The notes under the pieces were generated by a model that had not been told where the DNA came from, ran no database searches, and saw only the letters and a program-made list of their open reading frames with translations. Position numbers and translations under genes: made by a program. Below, one piece after another: positions 3,793-41,273 of a stretch of DNA of 64,000 bases. The stretch comes from Calothrix sp. PCC 7103 (lineage in GTDB: Bacteria > Cyanobacteriota > Cyanobacteriia > Cyanobacteriales > Nostocaceae). Position 1 is the first letter of the stretch; every line of letters begins with the position of its first letter. The stretch covers positions 4,418,761 to 4,482,760 of the forward strand of contig NZ_KB217478.1 of the NCBI RefSeq assembly GCF_000331305.1, in the 5' to 3' direction.

Positions 3793-4137
3793 ATGAAATA
3801 TGCATTTAATATCGTTGGCGTATCTCCTGTTTTACACTTTTTTAATCATCAACAAAAGTCTTTAGTGGGAGGGCAACCACAAGGTATAGAATATTTAGGG
3901 GCGCCTGATTGTACACTCGACGCATTTCTCAAAACAGTCGAATCAGTTCCCACAAAAGAATCTTGGGAAATGGATGAAGTCGTCAAAACAGTAATTGACT
4001 TTTGGATGAATAATTCAGAAAGCATCCGCTACTGGAAATCACGCTTACTCGACGCAGGTAGAGACAACCTCATTGTTACGAGAGTTGCAGAAATCCAAGC
4101 TTTGCAAGCAGAGTTTGATATGTTGTTTCAGAAATAG
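3793..4137 (+). CDS. Conserved small cyanobacterial protein, unknown function
   Basis: A 114-residue soluble protein with no signal peptide or membrane segment. The N-terminal part (MKYAFNIVGVSPVLHFFNHQ) is hydrophobic and strand-like; the C-terminal half is helical and charged (RVAEIQALQAEFDMLFQK). I do not recognise the family. Support for a real gene: a clear ATG, coding-like composition, an AGAGGG-like ribosome site about 8 bp upstream, and a strong 12-bp-stem hairpin immediately after the stop. Confidence 0.65.
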   Translation: MKYAFNIVGVSPVLHFFNHQQKSLVGGQPQGIEYLGAPDCTLDAFLKTVESVPTKESWEMDEVVKTVIDFWMNNSESIRYWKSRLLDAGRDNLIVTRVAEIQALQAEFDMLFQK

Positions 4138-5641: not shown

Positions 5642-6436
5642 ATGAATTTAGTCTTGAGAACTAGTTTATTAGCAGTATTTTTACTAACTTCAAGTTGTTC
5701 ACCAAAAAAGGGTGTAAAGCAAGAAACCAGTACGACCAATAATCAATCAACCCAAACCGAGCAAGTAAAAGAAGTAAAATCAACTAAAGCGGTACCAATA
5801 GCAGTCAAAGTTCCAGATAAACCAAAAGCTAGTACTACAAACTCAGTCAAATCAACAGACTCATCTAATAAGCAAATGCAGTTGGTAGTAGTTAGTGATG
5901 ACTTGCGGTTCTTCCAACACGAAACACCAACATACAAATCAGGAAAGTTTGAAGTTAAGCCAGATTTCCCGGCGCCAGGGAACTATACTGTATTTAGCGA
6001 TTATGATAAACAGCTTACAATCCAAAAAATCAAGATTCCAGGGGATGTTCCTTTACCCACCGAGCTTGAAAAATTTAGCAATACAAAAATATTGAATAAT
6101 ACAAAAATAACACTCTTAGCGCCTTCTTCGAGCTTCAAATCGGGACAACAGGTAAATTTAAGGTTTGACTTGCAGGATACAAAAAATAAACAACCAGTAA
6201 AATTGCAACCGTATCCAAATCAAAAAACGAACGAAAAAGCACGCTTATTCATAGTTCGCAGTTCATCACCACTCAAAAGTACAGATTACATACCAGCAAC
6301 GTTACTCCAAGACTCACCCGACGGACAAGTTAGCTTTGGGTCAAATTTTCCTCAAAAAGGAACTTATAAGCTTTGGTTACAGTTTAACCGCAATAGCAAA
6401 GTCAACACGGCTGATTTCTGGGTAGATGTGAAATAA
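5642..6436 (+). CDS. Exported lipoprotein of unknown function
   Basis: A 264-residue protein with a lipoprotein signal: hydrophobic LVLRTSLLAVFLLTSSC with lipobox cysteine at residue 19. A low-complexity Ser/Thr/Lys/Gln linker (about 25-75) suggests a tether, followed by beta-rich sequence. The C-terminus (YKLWLQFNRNSKVNTADFWVDVK) resembles the last strand of YtkA/FixH-like immunoglobulin-type domains, which occur in periplasmic copper- or haem-related proteins; that link is only inference. The next gene, the ethylene-receptor-type kinase at 6507, is co-directional 70 bp downstream. Ethylene receptors use copper, so a functional connection is conceivable but unproven. Confidence 0.7.
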   Translation: MNLVLRTSLLAVFLLTSSCSPKKGVKQETSTTNNQSTQTEQVKEVKSTKAVPIAVKVPDKPKASTTNSVKSTDSSNKQMQLVVVSDDLRFFQHETPTYKSGKFEVKPDFPAPGNYTVFSDYDKQLTIQKIKIPGDVPLPTELEKFSNTKILNNTKITLLAPSSSFKSGQQVNLRFDLQDTKNKQPVKLQPYPNQKTNEKARLFIVRSSSPLKSTDYIPATLLQDSPDGQVSFGSNFPQKGTYKLWLQFNRNSKVNTADFWVDVK

Positions 6437-6506
6437 TTACTTCCAATGGTAGATTTGCTTTGTAGCAATAACGTTGTATCCACTTGTAAAAAGGTGGAGC
6501 ATTAAC

Positions 6507-7763
6507 GTGGACTTACAAAACTTACACAATTTTTTTTACTCAGGTAATTTTATCCCACATGGGCATTGTTACCTGTGGAAGCCTGAGTTGGTATCGCTGC
6601 ATATACTATCAGATGTATTAATTGCATTGTCTTACTATTCAATACCTATAACGCTTGTCTATTTTATTCGCAAGCGTAAAGATATTCCGTTTCAGAATGT
6701 TTTTCTACTGTTCGGCGCCTTTATTATTTCGTGTGGTACAACTCATATTATGGAGGTATGGACATTATGGCATCCTAACTACTGGTTCGCAGGCGCCTTA
6801 AAAGCATTAACAGCGTTAATATCGTTCTATACAGCTTTAACTTTGATACCTTTAGTGCCAAAAGCATTAGCTCTACCAAGTCCTGCACAGCTTGAAACTA
6901 CGAACCAAGCTTTGATAATGGAGATTATGGAGCGTAAACGTGTAGAGCAAGAATTACGTCAGTATAAAGAACATTTAGAAGAAATTGTTCAAACTCGTAC
7001 TGTTGAGTTGGAGTTAACAAACGCAAAGCTTCAGCAAGAGATAGTTCAGCGTCAGCAGTCGCAAGATAAAATGGTGGGACTTTTGAAGGAACTTAGAAGC
7101 GCAAATCAAGAGTTGAACGATTTTGCTTATGTAGTATCGCACGATTTAAAGGCGCCTTTACGAGGAATTACTTCCCTATCTGAGTGGTTGTTAGCTGACT
7201 ATAGTGAAGAGTTCGACGAAGAAGGCAAAAAGATGCTGAATTTAATGATTAGTCGAGTTCAACGACTACATCAATTAATCGATGATATTTTAAAGTATTC
7301 ACGAGTCGGACGTGCGAAGGTTGAGAAGAAAGATGTAAACTTAAACAAAGTTGTATCTGAGTTAGTTGAAGTTTTAAATATACCCGAAAATATTAAAGTT
7401 GAGATTCCTAATCAATTACCGACTATTTTTTGCGATAAAACCAGGATTGAACAGCTTTTTCAAAATTTGATTAGCAATGCAATAAAATTTATTGATAAGC
7501 CAGAAGGGTTAATTAAGATTAGTTGTGCGGATGAGGGAGAATATTATAAGTTTAGTGTGGCTGATAATGGGATAGGGATAGAATCACAGCATTTTGAAAA
7601 GATATTTCAATTATTTCAAAAATTAACTAGTCTACAAGATTCTGATAGTACTGGTGTTGGGTTAGCTTTGGTTAAGAAGATTGTGGAATTACATGATGGA
7701 AAAGTTTGGGTTGAGTCCAAGGTAGGGATAGGGAGTAATTTTGTATTTACAATTAAGAAGTAG
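6507..7763 (+). CDS. Ethylene-receptor-type membrane histidine kinase
   Basis: I chose the GTG at 6507, preceded by AGGTGGAG with 7-bp spacing, over an upstream TTG; this gives 418 residues. Three membrane helices at the N-terminus match the copper/ethylene-binding domain of plant ETR1 and Synechocystis Etr1: D36 and Y43 in ILSDVLIALSYYSIP, then FGAFIISCGTTH with C76 and H80, the copper ligands in that family. A coiled coil (about 130-190) links to a HisKA domain with FAYVVSHDLKAPLRG (phospho-acceptor His) and an HATPase domain with LISNAIKF, DNGIGIE and GVGLALVKKI. No GAF domain or receiver is present, so an output partner must be encoded elsewhere. Ligand binding is inferred from conserved residues. 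Confidence 0.88.
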   Translation: MDLQNLHNFFYSGNFIPHGHCYLWKPELVSLHILSDVLIALSYYSIPITLVYFIRKRKDIPFQNVFLLFGAFIISCGTTHIMEVWTLWHPNYWFAGALKALTALISFYTALTLIPLVPKALALPSPAQLETTNQALIMEIMERKRVEQELRQYKEHLEEIVQTRTVELELTNAKLQQEIVQRQQSQDKMVGLLKELRSANQELNDFAYVVSHDLKAPLRGITSLSEWLLADYSEEFDEEGKKMLNLMISRVQRLHQLIDDILKYSRVGRAKVEKKDVNLNKVVSELVEVLNIPENIKVEIPNQLPTIFCDKTRIEQLFQNLISNAIKFIDKPEGLIKISCADEGEYYKFSVADNGIGIESQHFEKIFQLFQKLTSLQDSDSTGVGLALVKKIVELHDGKVWVESKVGIGSNFVFTIKK

Positions 7764-34781: not shown

Positions 34782-35761
34782 AGAATTTTAACTACACACG
34801 GGCAAATACAATACAAGATGTTGTCGATAGACCGGAACCAGCAATGCTTATTGCTGGTGGTACAAACTTACTTGACCGGATGAAGGTTTTTCTTGACGAA
34901 CCGACGCAAGTTGTTGATATTTCTCGTCTTGATTTAAAGAAGATTGAAAGTACTGGTGATGGGTTACGGTTAGGCGCCTTGGTTACTAATACTCAAGTAG
35001 CTGACTTTCCTCTTGTACGGCAAAACTATCCAATATTGTCACGAGCAATATTAGCAGGAGCATCGCAGCAAATTCGTAACGTTGCTACTGTTGGTGGAAA
35101 TTTGATGCAGCGTACTCGTTGTCCTTATTATTATGATACTGCGTTTAGTTGTAATAAAAGACAGCCAGGAAGTGGATGTCCCGCAGCAACGGGAATAAAT
35201 CGGATGCACGCAATTTTTGGGGCAAGCGATAAATGTGTAGCAGTAAACCCTTCAGATATGTGTGTGGCATTAGCAGCTTTGGATGCTGTTGTTGAAGTTG
35301 AAGGTGTTTCGGGTCGGCGCCAAATTCCTTTTAGCGAGTTTCATCGTTTGCCAGGTAATCAACCTGAACGTGATACCGTACTTGAAGAGGGGGAAATTAT
35401 TACTGCTGTAATATTACCTGTAAATATAAATGCGAAATCGGGAGTGTATTTGAAATTGCGTGACCGCGCTTCTTATAGTTTTGCGCTCATTTCAGTAGCT
35501 GCCATTCTTGATATTGATAATAATAAGATTCGTAACGCCCGAATTGCATTAGGTGGTGTTGCACACAAACCTTGGCGTACACAAGAAGCAGAACAGTTTT
35601 TGGTTGGTAAAGCTGTTGATGAAACATTATTTCAACAAGCTGCTGAGTTAGCACTTAGTAATGCTCAACCGTTAGAATATAACAAATTCAAAGTGGAAAT
35701 GAGCAAACGTGCTATTCGTCGCGCATTAATGGTATCAGCTAATGGAGGTGGGATAGCATGA
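34778..35761 (+). CDS. paoB: Molybdenum hydroxylase, FAD subunit with extra [4Fe-4S] site (PaoB/YagS-like)
   Basis: A 327-residue FAD-binding subunit of the CO-dehydrogenase flavoprotein fold. FAD motifs are AMLIAGGTNLLDRMK and ATVGGNLMQRTRCPYYY. The Cys-rich insert CPYYYDTAFSCNKRQPGSGC with a later DKC is the [4Fe-4S] site that marks the periplasmic-aldehyde-oxidoreductase branch. It overlaps both neighbours by 4 bp (ATGA), so the three genes are translated as one operon. Confidence 0.9.
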   Translation: MKNFNYTRANTIQDVVDRPEPAMLIAGGTNLLDRMKVFLDEPTQVVDISRLDLKKIESTGDGLRLGALVTNTQVADFPLVRQNYPILSRAILAGASQQIRNVATVGGNLMQRTRCPYYYDTAFSCNKRQPGSGCPAATGINRMHAIFGASDKCVAVNPSDMCVALAALDAVVEVEGVSGRRQIPFSEFHRLPGNQPERDTVLEEGEIITAVILPVNINAKSGVYLKLRDRASYSFALISVAAILDIDNNKIRNARIALGGVAHKPWRTQEAEQFLVGKAVDETLFQQAAELALSNAQPLEYNKFKVEMSKRAIRRALMVSANGGGIA

Positions 35762-37875
35762 GTCAAGTTATAGGGACATCGGTTAGTCGTAAAGATGGTG
35801 TTGCTAAAGTTACTGGTGCCGCCACTTACTCAGCAGAACATCAATTGCCTAATTTAGTTCATGGATATCTTGTAACTGCGACAATAGCTAGCGGACAAAT
35901 TAGTAGTATTGATACAAGTGAAGCTGAAAAATCTCCAGGATTTATTACGGTATTTACTCATTTGAATACGCCCCAGGTATTCAAACCGACTAATAACTTT
36001 ATGAACTCAAAGATTTACGAATCTCGTTTGCCTTTATCTGATAATCAAGTTCATTACGCAGGACAAATTATTGGGCTTGTAATTGCTGAAACTTTTGAGC
36101 GTGCCCGTGATGCTGCATTTCGTGTCAAGGTTGATTATAGTTCTCAACCGCTTGTAATTGATGCTAGTAAAGCAAACTTCAAAGAGGCGCCATCACATTT
36201 TGGCGAAGGAATGAAGTTTTCCATAGGTAACGTTACAAAAGGAATGGCTACTGCAACCACGAAAGTTGCTCAAACCTACAAATCTTCCACCGAACTTCAT
36301 GCTCCAATGGAACCTCATGCTATCATCGTAGACTGGCAAGAAGGCGATGGAGTTACTATATATGAGCATAGTCAATTCGTTTTAGGTTCACAACGTACCT
36401 ACGCAGAATTATTAGGTGTACCAACTGAAAAAGTACGAATTATTAGTCCATATATAGGTGGTGCTTTTGGTTCTAAAGGCTTTCCTTGGTCTCACGCTGT
36501 TCTTTGTGCAGCAGCAGCAAAACAAATTCAACGACCGCTCAAATTAGTTTTAAGTCGGCGCCAGATGACGGCTTTAACTGGACATCGTTCCGAAACAGAA
36601 CAAACAATTCGTTTAGGCGCCACTGCGGATGGTACGATTACAGCGATTGACCATGAAGTAAAATCAGTAACATCACCTGTAGAGGTTTTCACAGAGCCTT
36701 GCACAAATATTACCCCCGTCATGTACAAAACTGACAACCTGCAGATAATGCAGGAATTGGCGGTAATGAACGTTGGAGTACCCACTTTTATGCGGGCGCC
36801 GGGTGAAAATCCAGGAATGTGGGCGTTAGAATCAGCGATGGATGAACTCGCATGGAGTTTAAAAATTGACCCTGTAGAGTTGCGACTCAAAAACGAAACC
36901 AAAATTCATCAGCGTAAAAACCTTCCTTTTAGTGCAAAACATTTTGCGGACTGTTTGAAAGTTGGTTCCCAGAAGTTTGGTTGGAAAGATCGAGCAAAAG
37001 AACCGCGCGAAGTACATCGTGATGGAAAGTTAATTGGTTGGGGAATGGCAGCATCAACATTCCCAGGTTTACGCGGTGCAGCATCTGTCAAAGTTCGTTT
37101 GTTAAAAGATGGTACAGCACATGTTTTAACTGCTGGTAATGATATAGGGACTGGCGCTTACACAGTAGCAGCAATAGTTGCCGCCGAAGCTTTACAAATA
37201 CCAGTAGAAAAAATTCGTGTTGAACTTGGTGACTCACGACTTCCAGATGGAGGTATGGCAGGTGGTTCAATGATGAGTGCATCAATGGTGCCTGCTGTTA
37301 TGGCAGCATGTCAAGAAGTCCTAAAACAAGCAAATGCCAAAACAGCCCAAGAAGCATTTGCACTGCTTGAAGAAACTGGTGGCGCCGCATTTGAAGCTAC
37401 AGCATCATCTAAACCAGGAGAAGAAAGTAAAAAATTCGCCTTTCAATCATGGGGCGCCCATTTTTGTGAAGTTGCTATTGATGAGAGTATTGGTCGGTTG
37501 CGTGTAACTCGTTGGTTATCAGTAATGGATATAGGACAAGTTATCAACGCCAAAACCGCAGCAAGTCAAGTACGTGGTGGTGTGATAATGGGTATTAGCC
37601 AAGCTTTAATGGAAGAATGTCAGTTTGATCCCAATATTGGTTATCCCGTTGTATATGACTTAGCTACATATCACTATGCAGCACACGCCGATATTCCTCG
37701 TATAGATGTAATATTTGTTGGGGAACCTGATACTAACTTTAACCCTGCGGGAGTTAGAGGAGTAGGAGAAATTGGTATTACAGGTGTTTCTGCTGCTATC
37801 GCGAATGCTGTGTATCATGCCACTGGTAGGCGCCTGCGAAGTTTACCTTTAACACCAGATAAATTACTGGCATAA
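35758..37875 (+). CDS. paoC: Molybdenum hydroxylase, molybdopterin-binding subunit (PaoC/YagR-like)
   Basis: A 705-residue large subunit that binds molybdenum cytosine-dinucleotide cofactor and oxidises the substrate. Family segments: VSRKDGVAKVTGAATYSAEH, PYIGGAFGSKGFPWSHAV, GTGAYTVAAIVAAEAL, and near the C-terminus GVRGVGEIGITGVSAAIANA, whose Glu is the catalytic base in the family. The likely reaction is aldehyde to carboxylate. The substrate cannot be read. No cofactor chaperone gene follows: the next sequence is a repeat cluster. Confidence 0.92.
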   Translation: MSQVIGTSVSRKDGVAKVTGAATYSAEHQLPNLVHGYLVTATIASGQISSIDTSEAEKSPGFITVFTHLNTPQVFKPTNNFMNSKIYESRLPLSDNQVHYAGQIIGLVIAETFERARDAAFRVKVDYSSQPLVIDASKANFKEAPSHFGEGMKFSIGNVTKGMATATTKVAQTYKSSTELHAPMEPHAIIVDWQEGDGVTIYEHSQFVLGSQRTYAELLGVPTEKVRIISPYIGGAFGSKGFPWSHAVLCAAAAKQIQRPLKLVLSRRQMTALTGHRSETEQTIRLGATADGTITAIDHEVKSVTSPVEVFTEPCTNITPVMYKTDNLQIMQELAVMNVGVPTFMRAPGENPGMWALESAMDELAWSLKIDPVELRLKNETKIHQRKNLPFSAKHFADCLKVGSQKFGWKDRAKEPREVHRDGKLIGWGMAASTFPGLRGAASVKVRLLKDGTAHVLTAGNDIGTGAYTVAAIVAAEALQIPVEKIRVELGDSRLPDGGMAGGSMMSASMVPAVMAACQEVLKQANAKTAQEAFALLEETGGAAFEATASSKPGEESKKFAFQSWGAHFCEVAIDESIGRLRVTRWLSVMDIGQVINAKTAASQVRGGVIMGISQALMEECQFDPNIGYPVVYDLATYHYAAHADIPRIDVIFVGEPDTNFNPAGVRGVGEIGITGVSAAIANAVYHATGRRLRSLPLTPDKLLA

Positions 37876-37895
37876 CTTTGTAGGGTGGGCACTGC

Positions 37896-38072
37896 TAGCC
37901 CTGTCAAGGTGAATAGAATATTGCGGGAAAAATTCGTCTGCACCTCTGTGTCCTCTGTGCCTCCGTGGTAAAAAAATACATATATTTCACCACAGAGACA
38001 CAGAGAGCGCAGAGAGAAAGTAGAGTTTTATCGTTATAATACTGGGGTTTTTAACTCACCTTGACAGGGCTA
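37896..38072. repeat. Nested inverted repeats (177 bp), MITE-like
   Basis: Exact 17-bp outer arms TAGCCCTGTCAAGGTGA (37896-37912) and TCACCTTGACAGGGCTA (38056-38072) enclose an imperfect 27-bp pair: CTCTGTGTCCTCTGTGCCTC at 37944 and CACCACAGAGACACAGAGAG at 37988. The outer flanks carry related TAGGGTGGGCACTGC / TAGGTGGGCACTGCCC. No clear target duplication. It may be an insertion of the ACCACAGAG repeat into an older palindrome. Confidence 0.7.
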
Positions 38073-38140
38073 GGTGGGCACTGCCCACCATACCTTTAAT
38101 TTTTTACCACAGAGACTTCTAGGACACGGAGAAAGGGGCA

Positions 38141-38350
38141 AGTAAATTATTCTTTATTAAAATATCTGCTTATCGCAATATTATTGTACTATGGACTTAA
38201 TCATAAGTATAAGTCGGTTTAAGATGTGTATGCTCATAGTAATGGGTGTAAGTAATAACAGTACTGTAACCTAAAACACTAGTTTAATAATGGTGATGAT
38301 TATCATGATGAAATAAATTAGCCCATAGTAACTTTTACATGGACATCATC
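38141..38350 (-). pseudogene. Decayed copy of the hypB 5' region
   Basis: About 210 bp align without large gaps to the first 190-215 bp of intact hypB (40074-40265 region), including shared blocks AGTAAATTATTCTTT, TGGTGATGATTATCAT and CATAGTAACTTTTACAT. It covers the His-rich N-terminal part of HypB on the same strand but has no start codon frame, several stops and no GTPase domain. Its truncated end abuts an ACCACAGAGACTTCTAGGAC repeat (38106-38136), a probable breakpoint. Similarity looks about three-quarters by eye. Confidence 0.8.
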
Positions 38351-38428
38351 TAAATTACATAAAGTAAGTGACCCGACAAAGGGCATTATCAAAATTTTAT
38401 AATAGTAAATGTTAAAAGGTAGGATATT

Positions 38429-38887
38429 ATGAGTAAGCTATCAATACCGTATTTTCCAGACAGACTAATGGGTCAAGTAATAGTAACCTTAAATGTAACC
38501 AACCAAATTGATATAATATTAGCCGAACGTGGTTTCATTTCCTCTGAAGAAATTCGTTCTGTTACATTGACAAATGTTTTAGTCGATACAGGTGCCACAT
38601 TATTATGTTTACCTTCATCTGTTATTAGCCAACTGGGTTTAGTACAGCGAGGAGAAGCAAGCGTTCAAACCAGCGCTGGGCTACAAAAAGGACGAATATT
38701 TCAAAATGCTGAATTGTCCATTGAAGGGCGCCAAAGTACTTTTGACTGCTTAGAGCTAACAGAAGTACCATATGCTTTATTAGGTGTGTTACCAATGCAG
38801 CGTTTAGGACTGGAGCCAGATTTAACAAATCATAAATTGCGATTACTACCTATGAATTCGGAGCAAAGTTATCTTACAGTTTTATAA
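38429..38887 (+). CDS. Retropepsin-like aspartic protease, tandem copy 1
   Basis: A 152-residue clan AA aspartic protease. The catalytic motif LVDTGATLLCLP has Asp at residue 53; a second strand-turn follows (FDCLELTEVPYALLG and MQRLGLEPDLTNHKLRL). One DTG per chain implies that the active form is a dimer, as in retropepsins. No signal peptide, so cytoplasmic. It is about 75-80 percent identical by eye to the next gene. Both are preceded by hypB remnants and share promoter-like AATAGTAAATG...GGATATTATGAG. Confidence 0.82.
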   Translation: MSKLSIPYFPDRLMGQVIVTLNVTNQIDIILAERGFISSEEIRSVTLTNVLVDTGATLLCLPSSVISQLGLVQRGEASVQTSAGLQKGRIFQNAELSIEGRQSTFDCLELTEVPYALLGVLPMQRLGLEPDLTNHKLRLLPMNSEQSYLTVL

Positions 38888-38891
38888 ACAT

Positions 38892-38928
38892 AGGTAAAAT
38901 ATGTATATGATGATTATTATGAAAAGCA
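38892..38928 (-). pseudogene. Short second remnant of the hypB His-rich region
   Basis: GGTAAAATATGTATATGATG and the following ATTATTATGAAAAGCAA correspond to GGTAAAACATGTGTATGATG...ATCATCATGAAGCGAA at 40187 in intact hypB. Only about 37 bp remain. It lies upstream of the second protease gene exactly as the longer remnant lies upstream of the first. Confidence 0.6.
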
Positions 38929-38981
38929 AGTGGTGCTGAAGTCCCAAATATTATAGTAGTAAATGCTTAAATTAGGATATT

Positions 38982-39440
38982 ATGAGAAAGCTATCAATAC
39001 CATATTTTCCAGACAGACTAATGGGTCAAGTAATAATAACTTTAAACGCAACTAACCGAATTGATAAAATGTTGCAAATGCGAGGATTTATTACCCCAGA
39101 AGAAGTTCGTTCCGTTACATTAACAGATGTTTTAGTAGATACAGGTGCAACGTTACTATGTTTACCTTCATCTGTGATTACTCAATTAGGTTTAGTCCAA
39201 GGAGGAGAAGCAAGGGTTGAAACAAGTGCTGGAGTGCAACAAGGGCGAATATTTAGAGATGTTGATTTGAATATTGAAGGGCGCCAAGGTACTTTTGACT
39301 GCTTGGAACTAACAGAAGTATCATATGCTTTATTAGGTGTAACACCAATGCAAATTTTAGGACTTGAGCCAGATTTAAAAAACCATAAGTTGCGATTATT
39401 ACCAATGAATTCAGAGCAAAGTTATCTTACTGTTTTATAA
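38982..39440 (+). CDS. Retropepsin-like aspartic protease, tandem copy 2
   Basis: A 152-residue paralogue of 38429-38887 with the same catalytic LVDTGATLLCLP and identical length; it differs mainly at surface positions (for example NRIDKMLQMRGFITPEE). Both copies retain the active site and an open frame, so selection seems to have kept both. It is convergent with hypB, ending 45 bp from its stop. The natural substrate is unknown; it is unrelated to the HupW/HoxW hydrogenase endopeptidases. Confidence 0.82.
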   Translation: MRKLSIPYFPDRLMGQVIITLNATNRIDKMLQMRGFITPEEVRSVTLTDVLVDTGATLLCLPSSVITQLGLVQGGEARVETSAGVQQGRIFRDVDLNIEGRQGTFDCLELTEVSYALLGVTPMQILGLEPDLKNHKLRLLPMNSEQSYLTVL

Positions 39441-39484
39441 AAGTATCAACGTGATATTTCAGTAAGGTAGCTATGCCACACATA

Positions 39485-40288
39485 CTACTCGCATAACCAA
39501 TCATACCAATCATTTAAGCCGTCACCTGTTTGTGCAGAAACTTGAAAAACTTGAATTTGGGGATTTACTTGAAGCGCGTATTCAATACATTTTTCTATAT
39601 CGAACTGTACATAAGGTAACAAATCAAGCTTAGTGATAATCATTATTTGGCTAGCACGAAACATATGAGGGTATTTGATAGGTTTATCTTCTCCTTCCGT
39701 TACAGAAAGAATTACAACTTTGGCATTTTCACCCAAATCAAATAATGCAGGGCAAACAAGATTACCTACATTTTCAATCATCACAACAGAATTTAGGGAT
39801 GGGTTTAGCTGTTGCAAACCCTTATCTATCATTCCTGCATCTAAATGACAGCCTGTTCCGGTATTAATTTGTACAACTTTGCAACCAGTCTCTTGGATTT
39901 TTTGAGCATCATTAATCGTTTCTTGGTCGCCTTCAATAACGCTGATTTCTAATTTTTGCTTTAAATCTTTGATAGTGCGGGTAAGTAAAGTTGTTTTTCC
40001 GGCGCCTGGTGAACTCATCAAATTTAAAGCTATAATATTTCGTCCCTTGAACCAACCACGATTTTGAGCCGCGAGTAAATTATTCTTTGCTAAAATATCA
40101 GCTTCTAACGATATTGTTGTGCTGTGGACTTGGGCATGAATATGAGCAGGTTCATGATGATGGGTATGAGTAACAACAGTACCATCAGGTAAAACATGTG
40201 TATGATGGTGATGATTATCATCATGAAGCGAATCAACCATAGTAACTTTTACATTTCCATCATCAGAACAGCCACAAGTTACACACAT
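39485..40288 (-). CDS. hypB: Hydrogenase nickel-insertion GTPase HypB
   Basis: A 267-residue GTPase that supplies nickel to NiFe hydrogenase with HypA. The N-terminus has the CxxCxC nickel site (C2, C5, C7) and a His-rich store (residues 23-55: HDDNHHHHTHVLPDG and HTHHHEPAHIHAQVH). The GTPase domain shows the P-loop SSPGAGKTT (about 92-100), VIEGDQETINDAQKIQE, ENVGNLVCPA, and TKLDLLPYV. It is translated with hypA (5-bp gap). Fragments of its 5' region recur at 38141 and 38892. Confidence 0.97.
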   Translation of the reverse strand: MCVTCGCSDDGNVKVTMVDSLHDDNHHHHTHVLPDGTVVTHTHHHEPAHIHAQVHSTTISLEADILAKNNLLAAQNRGWFKGRNIIALNLMSSPGAGKTTLLTRTIKDLKQKLEISVIEGDQETINDAQKIQETGCKVVQINTGTGCHLDAGMIDKGLQQLNPSLNSVVMIENVGNLVCPALFDLGENAKVVILSVTEGEDKPIKYPHMFRASQIMIITKLDLLPYVQFDIEKCIEYALQVNPQIQVFQVSAQTGDGLNDWYDWLCE

Positions 40289-40818: not shown

Positions 40819-40974
40819 TTATTTATACCTTGTTTTATCACGTTTATTATACTTATCCATCATAGCTTCAAATGCTTCCTGTAAATCTATATTCTGTGAA
40901 TTTGCTAAACAAACAAGTGCAAAAATAATATCAGCTAATTCATCAGCTAAATCTTGAGTAGGTTCAGTAATTTT
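40819..40974 (-). pseudogene. MazG-like nucleotide pyrophosphohydrolase, C-terminal fragment
   Basis: An open 51-residue segment reads EPTQDLADELADIIFALVCL then ANSQNIDLQEAFEAMMDKYN and KRDKTRYK, ending at TAA. The ExxD pattern (DELAD) is the metal-binding site of MazG/dUTPase-fold NTP pyrophosphohydrolases. The N-terminal half and any start codon are missing: the frame runs directly into the inverted-repeat element at 40975. The sequence on the far side of that element does not continue MazG. Confidence 0.75.
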
Positions 40975-41169
40975 GGTTCTTCCGTAAATAGCGTGCTAAA
41001 TTTGAATTAAAATCGATTACTTTGATTTGATATCAAGGCTTACAGGCGCTTATTAGTCTTAAATTCAGAATCTGACATAAAACGCAGAGGAATAATGCTG
41101 TTATGCTTTTCCAGCAAGGAGTTCAAGCTGATTTTTAAACAAATTTAGCACGCTATTTACGGAAGAGCC
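40975..41169. mobile_element. 195-bp miniature element with 30-bp ISL3-like terminal inverted repeats
   Basis: The ends GGTTCTTCCGTAAATAGCGT (continuing GCTAAATTTG, 40975-41004) and CAAATTTAGCACGCTATTTA (continuing CGGAAGAGCC, 41140-41169) are complementary at 29 of 30 positions. GGCTCTTCCGTAA resembles ISL3-family ends. The inside has no transposase. The flanking 8 bp (GTAATTTT and AATAAAAC) do not match, so no ISL3-type duplication is visible, which suggests a deletion or recombination after insertion. Confidence 0.85.
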
Positions 41170-41273
41170 AATAAAACATCGCCCTTAAGAATGTCATCTT
41201 TTTTAAGTAAGATACAATGTGACTCAAATTGTGACCTATATATCCAGTAATTACTGCAATCAAATCACAATTG

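Follow-up and report, generated by a model that had tools for sequence, protein, structure and literature searches.

A probable small recombination scar beside hypB in Calothrix sp. PCC 7103, with two retropepsin-like protease genes of different lineages

In the available part of the report on transformation merodiploids of Streptococcus pneumoniae (PMC3784515), unequal crossing-over at a repeat present in donor and recipient leaves both versions of a gene in place, bordered by the repeat. These merodiploids span about 100-900 kb, the repeats are incomplete IS861 copies, and the event was shown in the laboratory. In those parts of the literature on hypB duplication and pseudogenes, cyanobacterial retropepsin-like proteases, unequal crossing over and Calothrix hypB or protease genes that were available, we met no account of the locus described here, in which two protease genes and two scraps of hypB lie beside an intact hypB.

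The window is a stretch of 64,000 nucleotides from Calothrix sp. PCC 7103 (contig NZ_KB217478.1, positions 4,418,761 to 4,482,760); its 8.8 Mb contig is the largest listed in a genome of 11.6 Mb and 12 contigs, called G000 below, and coordinates are window positions unless a contig is stated. From left to right the locus consists of a GNAT gene (minus strand), a PaoA/B/C-like set, a repeat block, the hypB remnant h1, protease 1, the smaller remnant h2, protease 2, hypB and hypA (Table 1), with hypB and both remnants on one strand and both proteases on the other. The sequence-only reading had given the order from first remnant to intact hypB correctly, and both proteases are indeed intact. The product of the complete hypB scores 281.7 against a TIGR00073 cut-off of 121.2, which makes it a HypB. 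The repeat block is a composite with at least 54 partial matches in its own genome, itself included (40 of 306 candidates scored), at least 46-77 in five congeners (40 candidates scored each) and 3 in G001. It had been claimed that the longer remnant ends at a ACCACAGAG repeat; this holds for the block of that type, which abuts h1, and not for the string itself, which lies at 38106-38114 within the block, 23 bases ahead of the start of h1. Beyond hypA there is a 199-bp element (40973-41171) with 42-bp inverted ends that are 90% complementary; it adjoins a fragment with a MazG domain (40822-40968; E 6.5e-11 to Pfam MazG) and apparently interrupts a mazG-like gene.

Table 1. Features of the locus in window coordinates
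Feature	Position	Strand	Remark
PaoC-like molybdenum oxidoreductase subunit, left neighbour	35758..37875	+	
Block of dispersed palindromic repeats, ACCACAGAG type	37876..38137	.	ends where h1 starts
h1, decayed 5' part of a hypB copy	38138..38350	-	
Protease 1 leader	38392..38428	+	resembles leaders of the locus's other proteases and of G028 (another locus)
Protease 1, 152 aa, retropepsin-like, DTGA motif	38429..38887	+	G002/G003/G004 type
h2, 30-bp hypB scrap upstream of protease 2	38893..38922	-	
ATGAAAAGCAAGTGGTGCTGAAG, overlaps h2 end	38919-38941		matches seam upstream of G003 protease
Protease 2 leader	38946..38981	+	
Protease 2, 152 aa, retropepsin-like	38982..39440	+	G006 type
Intact hypB, 267 aa	39485..40288	-	
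Intact hypA, 108 aa	40294..40620	-	

Our data show that h1 is a pseudogene remnant, with collinear homology above chance and a destroyed frame. It runs collinear with 40071-40264 of the intact gene in blocks of 76%, 81% and 89% identity (213 aligned columns, 71%, E 6e-28), and matches hypB of the congener G005 better still (219 columns, 76%, E 2e-40); its score of 174 compares with a maximum of 35 among 200 dinucleotide shuffles. The homology weakens toward the former start codon near 38366, and the frame is broken by three TAA codons (contig stretch 4456894-4457085). Differences between h1 and G005 hypB number 24/16/15 at codon positions 1/2/3 (76 positions each), compared with 2/2/8 (70 each) between the intact hypB genes of G005 and G000, and GC is 0.28 in h1 versus 0.37. 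The substitutions are thus not concentrated at third positions, which shows that h1 decays as neutral DNA. The second remnant, h2, is the weakest of the hypB pieces: 25 of its 30 bases are identical to G006 hypB, a score reached by none of 200 shuffles and none of 300 random window stretches of the same length. Of the two decayed 5' fragments proposed from the letters, the long one is therefore borne out, while the short one shrinks from about 37 to 30 bp. That such similarity arises by chance or from low-complexity His codons finds something to lean on in h2, which lies partly within these codons; h1 extends collinearly over 213 bp into a non-His part (the PAHIHAQVHSTTISLEADILAKNNLLA region), is thus more than low complexity and refutes the idea for its own case, and we regard the chance explanation as practically nil. 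A promoter derived from a hypB remnant was also considered and rejected, since a consensus scan gave 7 promoter-like sites versus a shuffle mean of 10.8.

Full-length open hypB is present in all seven genomes of the genus examined, and in five of them (G000, G002, G003, G004 and G006) a protease gene lies directly downstream of hypB and faces it, so that the pairing looked for in relatives occurs in four further species. G005 carries hypB about 50 bases after PaoC with no protease between, and G001 has it at another place, where the 14 kb examined contain no match to PaoC or to the protease; in G002, PaoC is reduced to its last 19 codons. Retention of the pair in five of seven species might suggest that the protease is functionally linked with nickel insertion or with the maturation of hydrogenase, and that selection keeps the two together. 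Against this, G005 and G001 have hypB without an adjoining protease, and the pairing was absent from the further genomes and loci examined. Protease matches were found in 30 of 60 genomes searched and, as we read the match tables, hypB stands beside the protease in just the five genus genomes; in the other 25 the two are distant, on separate contigs, or hypB is matched only weakly. Likewise, among the 38 named loci that carry a close protease, 3 have hypB in their flanks (up to 5 kb per side), those of G006, G003 and G002, and the other 35 do not. The facing orientation makes a single operon unlikely, and sequence comparisons gave nothing that links the protease to hydrogenase maturation. We find a functional tie hardly credible; the position beside hypB would rather be accidental than a sign of a maturation role, and the neighborhood should not be taken as a functional link.

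The proteases themselves are conserved. dN/dS is 0.21 between proteases 1 and 2 by NG86 (0.23 by YN00), 0.08-0.15 (0.13-0.21) between protease 1 and its three kin, and 0.15 by both methods between protease 2 and that of G006. Both genes are under purifying selection, and the suggestion that the protease copies were kept agrees with this. In an alignment of 27 rows (25 of the 38 loci and the two window copies), T54, G55 and A56 are invariant and D53 is found in 26, L118 having N; such a D-T/S-G motif in a hydrophobic context is that of retropepsin-like (clan AA) proteases. A structure model (mean pLDDT 80) matches retropepsins, including 5c9f of Rickettsia conorii, with probability 1.00 among the best 50 Foldseek matches, at a modest TM of 0.43-0.51 by query length and rmsd of 3.6-5.9. 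Pfam PF13650 is above cut-off in both copies and PF13975 in copy 1 only. Scores of 31.1 and 30.5 bits stay below the cut-off of 57.35 for NCBIfam TIGR03698 (clan AA, AF_0612 family), and a PDB sequence search with the protease profile gave no match at E 0.1. Judging from the model, the proteins probably act as dimeric retropepsin-like aspartic proteases.

Protease genes also occur in several copies elsewhere. A third close copy in G000 (L006:5452-5907) shares 97% identity with one in G002, and no hypB piece was found upstream of it; G003 carries a row of three, of which the last contains two stops (C1:7546509-7547848); and G058, of another family, holds four in a regular tandem array with 472-base spacing (C125:42277-44130). 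The possibility that the protease is a mobile unit duplicating its neighbors was rejected as a general rule, because direct repeats (within 1.5 kb per side, E 0.01 or better) flank it in only 5 of 47 usable entries (48 in all, L096 being dropped for its shortness; certain named loci coincide with G genomes), namely both window copies, L091 (G003), L092 (G002) and L089. In the last, from Cyanomargarita calcarea, a direct repeat of 186 bp (87%) flanks the protease (about 3855-4040 and 6398-6578), and there is no hypB match.

The two proteases of the window belong to different lineages. A DNA tree of 25 rows unites protease 1 with the proteases of G002, G003 and G004 (100/99), and protease 2 with the one of G006 (100/98); the protease of G028, from another genus and another locus, adjoins the former group (92/91). 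At 30 sites that separate the groups, protease 1 bears the base of the G002/G003/G004 group at 27 and that of the other group at 3, and a sister relation of the two window copies is rejected (AU p 4.95e-08). The result speaks against tandem duplication in place. This bears directly on a simple recent duplication of a hypB-protease unit in this strain followed by loss of the hypB copies. Such an event would account for two intact proteases 553 bp apart with similar leaders, and for sites 15 and 38 (within the first 40), where both copies agree against G002, G003, G004 and G006; given the rejected sister relation and the group-specific sites we consider it highly unlikely. From the idea of repeated hypB-protease duplication there remain the joint duplication, the decay of hypB and the retention of the proteases, while an origin of both proteases through in-place duplication finds no support. 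A single clade of the six hypB-linked proteases has AU p 0.175 (0.418 with G028 included), so the protease may have arrived twice independently.

hypB is likewise of two types, G000, G005 and G006 (100/99) versus G002, G003 and G004 (84/92). Between types, dS is 0.34-0.42 in six protease pairs (protease 1 of G000 left out) and 0.33-0.385 in nine hypB pairs; in nine hypA pairs it is lower and uneven (0.14-0.32), so that hypB, but not hypA, matches the proteases in divergence. Between protease 1 of G000 and its own group dS is 0.31-0.43, nearly as high as between the groups, and to the other group it is 0.50-0.51, which makes an old duplication with later losses possible. In rpoB and gyrA, G003 stands well apart (dS 0.60-0.71 and 0.40-0.43, respectively) and G000, G002, G004, G005 and G006 are close together. 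Yet the G003 protease differs from those of G004 and G002 by only 0.14 and 0.18, compared with 0.60-0.67 in rpoB and 0.40-0.42 in gyrA of these species; protease 1 of G000 is at 0.31 from that of G003 (rpoB 0.64, gyrA 0.42), and hypB of G003 at 0.25-0.26 from G004 and G002. From these values it appears that the block was handed on from species to species.

Kinship also changes along the window. The left neighbors of G000 are closest to G004 (PaoB 96.2%, PaoC 94.0%), its hypB to G005 (94.5%) and G006 (93.8%; others 90-91%), and its hypA leans slightly to G005/G006 (95.4-95.7% versus 94.1-95.1%). The switch falls between proteases 1 and 2 and would fit an exchange within the hypB copy that is now h2. 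The remnant h1 is sister to G005 hypB (94/94 with the full alignment and 93/84 with only the columns of h1) and is compatible with one clade of the G000/G005/G006 type (AU p 0.38); for a placement within the G002/G003/G004 type, AU p is 0.0047 with the full alignment and 0.059 with the h1 columns. Since h1 is of one hypB type and the adjoining protease 1 of the other, a single event without conversion does not suffice.

Scars around the protease are found in other species as well. Upstream of the single protease, 30 bp of hypB from the region of the P-loop codons survive in G002 and 52 bp from the hypB 3' end (~90%) in G003, in both cases with none of 200 shuffles and none of 300 window stretches as good; among the 38 named protease loci these two (L092 and L091, respectively) are the only ones above controls for an upstream hypB piece. 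No such piece was found upstream of the protease in G004 (score 27, as high in 34 of 300 random stretches) or G006 (score 21, 259 of 300). In the interval from protease to hypB, G006 has 28 bases resembling the PaoC 3' end, with a score that none of 1000 letter shuffles reached. A string of this kind also lies ahead of hypB in G005, where the protease is lacking (0 of 1000), and more weakly in G003 (4 of 1000); it is not significant in G000 (86 of 1000) and was not found in G002 (992 of 1000) or G004 (1000 of 1000). Because its last part also codes for the HypB C-terminus, only the case of G006 is clear, with a match that continues well beyond the stop of hypB. In G005 the string is present twice around a short palindrome (L071:5534-5640); a protease since lost may have left this pattern, or it is a target duplication. 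If the end of PaoC was duplicated in tandem together with hypB, with the protease at the seam, remains of hypB are expected on the left of the protease and remains of PaoC on its right. The seams were compared directly (h2 with G003, and seven other comparisons, six of them without signal). The corresponding place in G003 is matched by 23 bases that overlap the end of h2, with score 26 against 24 for the best of 500 letter shuffles, so both seams look to be of single origin. The comparison of h1 with h2 (7 of 500) matches in the common hypB part; h1 versus G003 gave 180 of 500, and G002 and G004 versus h1, h2 or G003 gave 63 to 460 of 500.

We consider it probable, with some reserve, that the locus is a small recombination scar, in which duplication of the PaoC end and hypB with a protease at the seam was followed by an exchange that stacked two protease lineages. 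PaoABC and hypB-hypA would originally have stood end to end, facing each other. A segment comprising the 3' end of PaoC and hypB would then have been duplicated, with one copy of a dispersed protease (leader and ORF) at the seam, giving PaoC - hypB' - protease - PaoC-end' - hypB - hypA; this order is assembled from pieces across species and is in no genome seen as a whole. Separated from hypA and redundant, hypB' would have decayed neutrally, leaving the observed pieces, which differ between species, and the proteases would have been retained through the purifying selection that their dN/dS shows. In the window lineage a second exchange may have brought in a G002/G003/G004-type protease next to the resident one of the G006 type, in its simplest form by unequal recombination between hypB copies with DNA from a relative. 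A more general version, which we put forward tentatively as a possibility, is that the hypB copies flanking a protease serve as portable homology arms: the block hypB-protease-hypB would move between species by homologous recombination, out-of-register pairing would stack protease versions from different species rather than swap one for another, and the decayed hypB pieces would be fossil arms left by these exchanges.

A rather unlikely alternative is that the ancestor of the genus already held the array hypB-protease 1-hypB-protease 2-hypB and that reciprocal losses followed, G000 keeping both proteases, G002, G003 and G004 the first and G006 the second, and G005 shedding both by recombination between hypB copies. 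It agrees with the dS of 0.51 between the two proteases of G000, above the difference between hypB types, and with the likeness of the protease 2 and G003 seams, expected if there was one duplication. It requires losses in all five other species with the locus, however, although some could be shared, and h1 should then match the array in age and fall outside both hypB types; separation of the six intact hypB genes from h1 is disfavored (AU p 0.0047, full alignment), barring conversion. The six dS values between groups, taken without protease 1 of G000, need nothing clearly older than the hypB split. We thus prefer duplication at the seam followed by exchange.

The locus offers a small example in which leftovers from several related species allow the duplication, breakage and exchange of a gene pair to be traced in large genomes of cyanobacteria. 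The kind of event is ordinary, and slightly unusual in that the two proteases are of different lineages. The proteases resemble bacterial single-domain retropepsin-like enzymes of clan AA such as 5c9f in predicted fold, DTGA motif and size, and differ from the TIGR03698 family in scoring under its cut-off. Compared with tandem duplication followed by pseudogene decay, the locus is alike in having a collinear decayed copy by an intact gene, neutral substitutions and intact neighbors, but a gene of another family, the protease, sits at the seam and species keep different pieces. Set against the merodiploids of S. pneumoniae, as described in the available part of PMC3784515, the scale here is about 1 kb, hypB would be the presumed repeat, and the event is read from sequence alone.
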